From contig NC_081820.1 in NCBI RefSeq assembly GCF_030704535.1, positions 23,926,001 through 23,990,000 on the forward strand: a stretch of DNA of 64,000 nt. Reading direction: 5' to 3'. Both the position numbers and the translations under genes were made by a program. The notes below the pieces were generated by a model that was not told where the DNA came from, searched no databases, and saw only the letters and a list, made by a program, of their open reading frames with translations. This DNA comes from Vitis vinifera (taxonomy: Eukaryota; Streptophyta; Magnoliopsida; Vitales; Vitaceae). Shown in pieces: positions 34,311-38,372 of the stretch. The stretch's first letter is position 1, and each line of letters starts with the position of its first letter.

Positions 34311-35409
34311 TGTAGACCCCCATTTTGGGTGCATTTCCGCAGGCTATTTTCGCCAGGTGTTGGGATTTGATAGCCACGTGTCGCCTCAAGAGAGGCCATT
34401 AGGGAATCGTGTTAGTGGTTTGAAGAAGCAATGGAAAGGCGACACGTGTTATAGAATATTCTTGATTGGTTTTGGGAGGATTTGGAGGAGCGTAGACGGA
34501 GAGGAGATATTTTGGTTGCTGTTACAGAGAGGTAGAGGTAGCTTGGGAGGCAAGGTAGAGAGAGGGGGTGGCAGGGTTTCGGGATGAGCTTTAGAGAGTT
34601 TTCACAGAAGAGAGAGTGAGAGAGCATGAGAAAGAGAAGAGTGAGTTTTTCAGTGGGCAAGAGGAAAAGCCTGGGAAGAACGAGAGAGAGTTGGAGAATA
34701 AGAAGCCGAACCATCTTCACTTGAGGAGCTCAGGTATGGCCACTATGGGTACTTTCGCTTTGGATTTCTTGGTTTTCCTTTCTTGCCATTGTTGATCTTA
34801 AACATTGTTTGTTGGGTTTTCTTGAACCTAAGCTCGCATCACACTTGCTCTGGTTTGTTTCCTCTCTAGTTTCTCTTATTTCCCCTGTAAATGACTGAGG
34901 TATGGATTGCTTTTTTTGGGCTTGATATTTGATTAATTACACAAAAGCTTACTGTTTGTTCCACCTGCTCGGATCCATTTAGTACAACATGAAATAGAGT
35001 CGAGTCTAATGGGTTGTTTGTTTAGAGCATGTTTGGTTTTCTTTGGAACCCTTAATTTCTTGCTTTTGAAAAACTCCAATCATTATTCTTGAAAACTATT
35101 TGGAAGTTCAAACAGTTTTTGGAAACCTGTTGGATGGCACTCCAAGACTTCTCTCATGGGCAGCGACTGTTCCTGGAATCATCTCTGTTTTTGGTATATA
35201 TGGCAGTAATACTAGAGAGTACGGTCAGAGGATCAATCATTTGCTAAGAGACCTGGGATTAAAGTATGGCATGGTGTAAACTTGGGAAATCCTAACTACC
35301 ATTTTCATAAGCAATTTGCATCATCTGGAATGGTAGAGGAGGTGGAAGGTGTTTTATTAAAGAACCTGATGAGTTCGCGAGATTGCTACAGCCAAGAGTG
35401 GATGCCGTC

Positions 35410-36300
35410 TTCCCCATCTTTGCATGGCCATGCATGCCCCCCAAAAAAACCTTTGCAAAACCCATCACTCATCATATCCATCATTATCCACATCTCTTAT
35501 TTTTCATACCCATATTTTCATCTTTTAACTTTCATATCCAAGCCCGTCACCATATGCCCACCATCAACTTCATCCATGTACACAAACCCAAATCCTAAAC
35601 CAAACACTCCTCATGCTTTTACCATCCTTCATACCCATTGTCAATAGCCCATACCCATTACATGCCTATATCTCCATCTATCATTTCACCACCTTCTTAC
35701 TATACCCATTAATCCTCTTCTCCCACTACCCGTTTCACTGATGATATCCACACCATGTACCCAACATGCCCATTACCCTACATACACGGCCATCCTCCAT
35801 AATACCCACGTTTCCATTTTCCAATACCCATTATACCCGTTTCTCTCACTATCTTCTTCAAACCATCCCACCACTCATAATCCCTATCTTCATTCCCATG
35901 CAAATACCTCACCACTCATAACCACTATTTTCATTCCTATGCACATGGCCACCTCCATCTCATTCCATTTTTAATCCTTATACCCACCATGCCCATCTCT
36001 CTACACCACGTACCCTTCATACCCATTTTCCAATACCCATTAAACCCATTCCTCCCACCTTTACATGGCCATGCATGGCCACACAAACCATTGCAAACGT
36101 TTCTATCATTCCATTCCATCCCTCATATTCCATTATACCCATCACCATGCCCACATCCTCATACCCACCATTAACAGCCGGCCTCACTCTAACCCACTCT
36201 ATGCCCGTGGCCATTCTCATTTCCCCACATCCTCATCACCCTTCATTAGCCATTCCACCTATACTAACCCACCGAACCTATTCCTCCCATATTCATCATT
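35410..36300 (+). repeat. C-rich, G-poor repetitive tract inside the LTR-type element
   Basis: Long run dominated by CATACCCATT, ATACCCATC, CCCATTTCC and CATGGCCATGCATGGCC motifs, with strikingly little G on the plus strand. The short open frames here on either strand come from the base composition. It looks like a degenerate simple-repeat array. A related piece occurs at about 37500-37540. Confidence 0.65.
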
Positions 36301-36484
36301 TTTTTTTCTCATCTTATACCATACCACCCAAGTTTCTAAAACAATATGGAGCTGAAGTAGCAGGTTGAGCCCAGCTTGTTGCAACTGATGAGGAACTGAT
36401 AACTCCACTCCATTCACATCTCCATTAATGGTAGATATGTAAGCAAAGTGTGGATGCATAAAGCAGTTTAAAAGGAAATTTTCT

Positions 36485-36690
36485 GGCTGTTACAGCTGTG
36501 TGAAAAGAGGACGGGATCCGTTTCATTTGCTGCTTGATGCTTCTAAGGGGATTAAACAGATTGGTGTTGTCAGTTGGGGTTCACAGGGTCCTGTTCAAGC
36601 TCAGAATTTAAGGGATTTTTTTTTTTTTTTGTGGAAACGAAATCTAATATTGTGGCAAGAGGATCACGGAGACCACCCCTATTTGTGTAT
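36485..36690 (+). pseudogene. Captured fragment of ketol-acid reductoisomerase (KARI)
   Basis: The translation contains [15 protein letters not shown] followed by [20 protein letters not shown]. This matches the N-terminal NADPH-binding region of plant plastid KARI, the branched-chain amino acid enzyme, whose motif is GVIGWGSQGPAQAQNLRDS. Only a small part of the enzyme is present, decayed, within the LTR-type element, so it is a fossil capture and not an enzyme gene. Confidence 0.75.
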
Positions 36691-36720
36691 TTCATGAGAC
36701 AACCTCATTTGATCAGAAAG

Positions 36721-37350
36721 GAATCAATGATTCTCAGGACAAACATTTGGAGCAGTCGTTGCCTTCCATGTCTAAAGGATTGAACAACAAGGATAAGGAC
36801 AGAATATCGACGCAGTCTATTTTGATAGAATAATATGAAACAGACACTAAAGAGTCATATGTTTGTGGCTCTGATGGAGATTATGCATCATGGGTCTCAT
36901 GGTTTTGCCACGTGCAAGGGCATGAGTTCTTCTATGAAGTTGACGTCGAATATATCCAAGATGACTTTAACCTTTGTGGTTCGAGCAATCAAGTTCCTTA
37001 TTATGATTGTGTACTTGACTTGATTTTGGATGTTGAATCTTCGCGTGGTGATTCCTTCACAGAAGAACTAAATGAATTAGTGGAATCAACAACAGAGGTG
37101 CTTTATGGTTTGACTCATGACTGTTACATATTGACTAGCGAAGGACTGGCTGCAATGCTGGACAAGTACAAGGACTGTGACTTCGGTAGATGCCCAAGAG
37201 TTAACCGCTGTGGACAAGCCTGCCTTCCAATGGGTTTGTCAGACATTCCTCGACCAAGCACAGTAAATGTCTACTGTCCTAAATGCGAAAATATTTAACG
37301 TTCTTGCTCCAAGCCCCAAGGTGACATTGATGGAGCCTATAGAGCCTATC
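36721..37350 (+). pseudogene. Captured fragment of casein kinase II regulatory subunit beta
   Basis: The translation shows, in family order, [89 protein letters not shown] and YCPKC. This covers most of plant CK2-beta (N-terminal plant extension, acidic region, zinc-finger region). The parts are contiguous with no intron-like gaps, suggesting capture from a spliced message. It is decayed and lies inside the LTR-type element directly after the KARI piece. Confidence 0.85.
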
Positions 37351-38372
37351 TAGAAGGGTGATAAGTGTTCAGTCCTGAGGTGCTTGATTTGACAGAGGAG
37401 GGTCTCATGCAGAAGTTTGCTGCTGGGGTCTCCCAATTTACTCCGCTCTCATTGGCTATCTCATACCCAATCCCAGTACTCACATCTCAGGCCCACTTGT
37501 ATGATATTGGTTTGCATGGCCACCTTTAGGCCATGTATCATCTTTCATTCCTTCATCACTAATATTGAAAATAATTTTCCAAATCCTATTCTTCAAATAA
37601 TTTTCCAAATTTTAATTTTTCAAATAATTTCAACTCCTCAATCTTTCATCCTTAGAATTTTTTTAGCCCCAAGAGTCCCAAATTTCAATAAAATTTGTTG
37701 CCATTTTTTTTGGGTAAACGATTTTCATATCTTCTTTGTTTTTTTTTTTTAAATGTTTCAAAATAAGTATGAATTTAATTTCGTAATTCCAAATAATGGA
37801 ATTTATAAAATTAATTTGTGCAAAAATAAATCGGGCTTTGATGAGGGCCCAACATATGTGATTTCCTCATTGATTGATTGATTGCTATATATGATTGACT
37901 TATTCCACTCTATGACATGCATGCAATTATTCTGTTTTTATTTATTAACCTTTTTTTTCCATGAAGTAAACCAGCCCATCACTCAGGTACACTCTTTGCC
38001 TCTCTTGTTCATTCGATTATTTTGTTTTGATTGATATTCATTTAATATCCATGTTTTATCAATCTATTGTCATACTTACTTCATATCATTGGTAGAGACC
38101 CGTTTTTAGGAACTTAGAGGGGTGCTACGGTCTTTACCGTATCTTCCTAATAAGTAACCTGACCCTCGAGCCTATATTTGGTTTTTTCATAGACTACATT
38201 TTTCAAATAAAAAGTCACACTTAAGGTTTTCTTTCTTATTTTATTTACCCTTTAAAAATAAAACAAAAATAAATGAGGACTCCAAATTATTTTCTAAAAA
38301 ATAAATTATTTTCAAATAAAAAACGAGTTTGCCATCGAGTGGAAGTGCATGAGCAAAAATGCGGGGTCCACA

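Follow-up and report, generated by a model that had tools for sequence, protein, structure and literature searches.

A 4062-bp insertion with LTR-type ends and pieces of at least three host genes beside a duplicated grapevine receptor gene cluster

Introduction

What kind of element is the 4062-bp sequence that adjoins one copy of a duplicated receptor gene cluster in Vitis vinifera, and how could pieces of unrelated host genes have come to lie in it side by side and in one direction? The window, by which the whole analysed stretch of 64,000 nucleotides is meant, contains leucine-rich-repeat receptor-like and protein kinase genes, as judged from open reading frames, three of which were confirmed by Pfam. 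Within this setting, the limits of the sequence, its ends, its gene pieces and its likely origin are treated in turn.

The insertion and its empty site

Self-comparison of the window revealed a tandem duplication, with copy A at about 11949-34310 and copy B at about 38592-62893. The duplicated unit is a receptor gene cluster and is mostly more than 99% identical per kb. With gap columns excluded, the first two 1-kb bins have an identity of 98.4% and 98.6% and the following ones, up to about 33050, of 99.2-100%, after which it drops suddenly to 90.9% and 94.2% in the final two bins (about 1.3 kb), which adjoin the insertion. The 90.9% bin also contains 160 gap columns, and with gaps counted the BLAST identity is 87.4% for 32977-34310 (1356 columns). 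The duplication could be recent, or the two copies could be separate haplotypes that the assembly placed one after the other. Near the point where they begin to diverge, at 32854-33345, a 123-bp unit is repeated in tandem about four times. About 220 bp separate the element from the breakpoint of the duplication, and at 38592-39351 there is a receptor-like protein gene that is cut down to the first part of the gene with the open frame 9643-12750.

If the 4062 bp are left out and the left flank is continued directly at 38373, the alignment with copy B goes on through positions 62889-62931, where 35 of the 43 bases directly after the insertion match and all 8 differences are transitions (P 4.5e-14 for this fixed position); past those 43 bp the similarity of the right flank to copy B ends. 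The empty site in copy B reads AAG/ATGAC/CCAGTG at 62889, versus AAG/GTGAC/(4062 bp)/ATGAC/TCAGTG at the filled site. Because copy B keeps the empty site, the limits of the insertion are exact and both its ends are fixed (Table 1), and because this empty site lies in the same window, the insertion is certain whatever its class. A sequence-only reading of this DNA had placed an element at exactly these coordinates, which is borne out by the empty site. The 5-bp target duplication that it described is also present, and with an unoccupied counterpart, but it is imperfect, its two sides agreeing in 4/5 positions.

Two further observations concern the surroundings. The right flank at 38373-38440 contains a tRNA B-box-like word, GGTTCGAATCT, which we assume may belong to a SINE; no tRNA genes were found in the window. 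A second insertion of 1926 bp at 47774-49699 is present in copy B and missing from copy A, has a perfect 5-bp duplication (GGGGC) and the ends TGATT...AATCA, and shows no LTR pair when aligned against shuffles, so that it is possibly another solo LTR.

Table 1. Coordinates of the insertion, its target site and its internal features
Feature	Position	Strand	Evidence
Insertion, 4062 bp	34311..38372	+	BLAST alignment with copy B ends at exactly 34310; collinear again from 38373
Left target-site duplication GTGAC	34306..34310	.	joined flanks aligned with copy B empty site
Right target-site duplication ATGAC	38373..38377	.	same flank alignment with copy B empty site
Unoccupied target site ATGAC, copy B	62889..62893	.	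flank alignment
5' terminal inverted repeat TGTAGACCCC	34311..34320	+	sequence
3' terminal inverted repeat GGGGTCCACA	38363..38372	+	9/10 versus 5' end
G-rich 5' part ending in CAGGTATGG	34321..34734	+	G 0.36 for 34311-34734
T-rich, intron-like stretch (inferred by eye)	34735..35100	+	T 0.43
Coding-looking stretch in shifting frames	35101..35412	+	translations
Low-complexity tract rich in C and poor in G, with degenerate CCCATACCCATT-like repeats	35413..36320	+	C 0.38, G 0.05
KARI (ketol-acid reductoisomerase) NADPH-domain fragment	~36473..36619	+	1qmg, 3fr7 matches
CK2-beta N-terminal region, candidate	36648..36830	+	open frame in phase with core
CK2-beta core fragment	~36873..37340	+	ungapped over 156 residues
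Third gene piece, from ribosomal protein P0 (uL10)	~37353..37502	+	4v3p_Ls match
A/T-rich 3' part	37561..38372	+	base composition

Inverted ends but no pair of LTRs

The element begins with TG and ends with CA, and these termini are part of 10-bp inverted repeats. Taken alone, the 10-base ends carry no signal, as 16 places in the window resemble them within 2 mismatches, compared to 24.8 expected; within 1 mismatch, no further copy exists in the window besides the two ends themselves. A longer inverted repeat was not found, the inverted alignments of the terminal regions having scores of 14, 14, 19 and 19, inside the shuffled range.

The repeat search gave no LTR pair among the 20 direct-repeat families listed out of 25, and direct alignment of the first with the last 300, 600 and 1000 bp gave scores of 9, 15 and 19, respectively, versus 19, 18 and 24 as the largest of 60 shuffles. 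At 1500 bp the score was 26 and the shuffle maximum 24; this was rejected as an LTR pair, the alignment being a gapped low-complexity match between 35444-35535 and 37568-37649, well inside the element. An LTR pair brought by the insertion should still be visible, because the flanks of the site remain 87-94% alike between the copies. As there are only two ends in all and they do not belong to a pair of LTRs, the whole 4.06 kb behaves as a single LTR-like unit, and the claim of the sequence-only reading that the element is bounded by LTRs has to be given up, since its ends share no direct repeat.

Four 12-base words for primer-binding sites were looked for on both strands of the element; none occurs with 2 or fewer mismatches and four matches have 3 mismatches, and a polypurine tract, taken as a run of at least 15 purines, is absent. 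Pfam was searched with each of the 43 open stretches of at least 45 residues in the six frames, of which two had been shortened by 1 to 13 residues; none matched gag or pol, in agreement with the sequence-only reading, which had seen neither. Rfam gave no match in 33601-39000 at E values up to 0.5.

Pieces of host genes in one direction

Among the 43 open stretches, only matches to KARI_N and CK_II_beta stood out. The remaining weak ones were judged to be due to chance, namely TIC20 (E 0.035), EF_assoc_2 (0.099), NIR_SIR (0.19), I-TevI_ZnF (0.29), EMC6 (0.054), Pox_A9 (0.042), Trp_Tyr_perm (0.29) and Plasmod_dom_1 (0.015).

The KARI piece matches rice KARI (3fr7) with an E value of 1.9e-11 and 1qmg, which we take to be spinach KARI, with 5.8e-11, and this is the NADPH-domain fragment that had been recognized from the sequence before; its Pfam match to KARI_N (E 0.0031) is below the curated cut-off. 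The match ends at a run of 14 T residues. We assume that the similarity may run on past it to about 36680; a continuation beyond the T run had no database match.

The core of the CK2-beta piece is 109/156 residues identical to CK2-beta-1 (9tfy_C, E 4.7e-72), without a gap over 468 bp, and it is also recognized by Pfam PF01214 (CK_II_beta, E 8.9e-46). The earlier description of a nearly complete CK2-beta stretch stands in terms of identity but not in terms of completeness, as the profile match covers positions 1-149 of 182 and the C-terminal end is thus missing. A stop is found at 37296 within the aligned part and another one at 36831 just upstream, and the frame 36648-37295 is open except for one stop, with no shift, and in phase with the core. 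Its first section, upstream of the stop at 36831, resembles in our estimation the N-terminal region of CK2-beta; Pfam and a further search gave no relevant database match for it.

Directly 3' of CK2-beta there is a third piece that the sequence-only reading had missed when it counted two genes, having named KARI and CK2-beta correctly, and in the same orientation. This piece matches 4v3p_Ls, presumably a wheat chain, over chain residues 197-244 (E 4.2e-11), and 20 of the 23 chains listed are P0/uL10; Pfam does not recognize it. As KARI, CK2-beta and P0 are all on the plus strand, the proposed chimeric multi-gene capture in an LTR-type insertion gains support and extends to three genes. By these matches, at least three host genes that are unrelated to one another are represented in the element by pieces running in one direction, and the pieces are decayed and probably make no protein.

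An origin of the pieces from spliced messages, with their introns lost, is plausible in view of the ungapped CK2-beta core and the common orientation. Part of the N-terminal exon (exon 1) of CK2-beta is, as we presume, missing in the element, and the absence of the first intron at that place could therefore be due to deletion.

Layout outside the gene pieces

By eye, the G-rich 5' part of the element is possibly a promoter or leader with a splice donor near 34733. The intron-like stretch that follows it looks, if it is host-derived, like a poor fit to an origin from spliced mRNA. Pfam and further searches, one of which took frame +0 of the first approximately 2.3 kb, gave no convincing match for the coding-looking stretch in shifting frames or for a short one near 36331-36420. 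The C-rich tract is strongly strand-biased. AATAAA occurs seven times in the element, always between 37687 and 38315 and hence only in the 3' part, which may resemble other plant repeats.

Origin of the insertion

It is known that a 5-bp duplication together with TG...CA ends points to the integrase of LTR elements. The short (4-6 bp) target duplication and the TG...CA ends that characterize LTR-retrotransposon insertions are both found here; the two direct LTRs, the primer-binding site with polypurine tract and the gag/pol genes of a full-length LTR retrotransposon are not. The structure would fit that of a solo LTR (target duplication, no LTR pair, no interior). We thus regard the insertion, with moderate confidence, as the relic of an LTR retrotransposon, most probably a solo LTR with a length of about 4.06 kb and with pieces of host mRNAs that were picked up inside the LTR. 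Counted in favour of the solo LTR are the empty site with the 5-bp duplication, the TG...CA ends, the lack of a terminal direct repeat, of a primer site and of a purine run, and also the three host genes in one orientation and the restriction of AATAAA to the 3' part. Counted against it are the length, as 4 kb is long for an LTR, and the one mismatch in the target duplication. The label "LTR" rests on the structure of the ends and the length of the duplication, because no second copy or full-length relative has been seen.

If the insertion is a solo LTR, the cargo lay inside the LTR. In this case, a non-autonomous element with long LTRs would have been reverse-transcribed by the enzymes of another element, and while the first stretch of cDNA was being made, which starts at the primer site and covers U5 and R, the reverse transcriptase may have jumped onto co-packaged host mRNAs and then back, which would place the sense pieces into U5. 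The strand transfer would then have copied them into both LTRs, the element would have integrated, and a later recombination between the LTRs would have removed the interior and one LTR. Such pieces could be joined in several ways, of which template switching is one, and the direction assigned to the element itself is a presumed one.

The same ends and duplication, without an LTR pair and with three sense pieces, would be expected also if LTR-element integrase had inserted a whole non-autonomous cDNA that lacked the second LTR from the start as an aberrant product of reverse transcription, but solo LTRs are established to be common and integrase normally acts on molecules with an LTR end at each side, which makes this unlikely. 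To the same degree it is doubtful that the gene pieces of a solo LTR or other element were joined as filler DNA at double-strand breaks instead of by template switching: all three pieces have one orientation and the CK2-beta core is gap-free, which speaks against such patchwork, even if short pieces of unrelated genes abut here and filler copying of gene fragments is discussed for plants in the consulted part of PMC7935947.

Elements that move as DNA have to be considered as well. Pack-MULE and Pack-CACTA elements have 9-bp and 3-bp duplications, respectively, and typical ends, and what is found here is a 5-bp duplication with TG ends; a duplication of this length misfits the MULE, CACTA, hAT and PIF elements of plants. 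Gene capture by Pack-type elements is known from the consulted part of a review, and the 10-bp inverted ends (9/10) would suit a gene-capturing DNA transposon whose inverted ends are short, but given the length of the duplication and the lack of a longer inverted repeat this origin is very improbable. Retropseudogenes that were inserted singly (LINE-type) into an older LTR or repeat are the least probable explanation, as the pieces are internal, contiguous and in one orientation and no A tail is seen, against which the T run at the end of the KARI match and the unusual frequency of retro-pseudogenes in grapevine, reported in the consulted part of PMC7935947, can be set.

Comparison with known systems

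Exact-pattern scans for relatives gave 0 hits in viral contigs and 0 in prokaryote genomes, where none were expected, and a pattern for CK2-beta found 11 stretches but no relative in the prokaryote genomes and nothing in the viral contigs; these misses say little, because such collections are not meant for plant genomes. A limited literature search on the ends, gene capture, LTR cargo and the CK2-beta and KARI gene structures retrieved no published description of the element. A unit of this kind, with three host genes in an apparently single LTR, would offer a testable route, a template switch in the first cDNA stretch, by which cargo could enter an element and be doubled. We propose only tentatively, and with considerable doubt, that there may be a family of long-LTR non-autonomous plant retrotransposons that collects pieces of host mRNAs, in sense, within the LTR, in which case a full-length copy would carry the cargo twice and a solo LTR would carry it alone.

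LARD and Ogre/Tat-type elements have multi-kilobase, largely non-coding LTRs, and the element would resemble them in its presumed long LTR, as far as a comparison by description goes. The pieces in the maize retroelement Bs1 lie, as we understand it, between two LTRs, in which it differs from the element described here with its lack of an LTR pair. Like Bs1, which contains pieces of three host genes according to the consulted part of a review, the element is of the LTR type and holds pieces of several unrelated host genes, in this case KARI, CK2-beta and P0. LTR elements have captured 672 genes in rice and 1343 in sorghum (PMC3726574, consulted in part), and a maize survey, in the part consulted, has no multi-gene case among 425 gene-carrying elements, each of which held pieces of one gene. 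These surveys likewise found host gene pieces in LTR-type elements, but it was full-length elements that were counted. In the accounts of BARE-2 and long Veju, as far as consulted, abnormal template switching placed foreign sequence in the LTR (BARE-2) or in the element (Veju), similar to what is proposed here, but the foreign part was another retroelement or unknown DNA and not pieces of three host genes. The capture of host genes by LTR elements as such is thus known, and it is the multi-gene form in a single LTR that looks rare.
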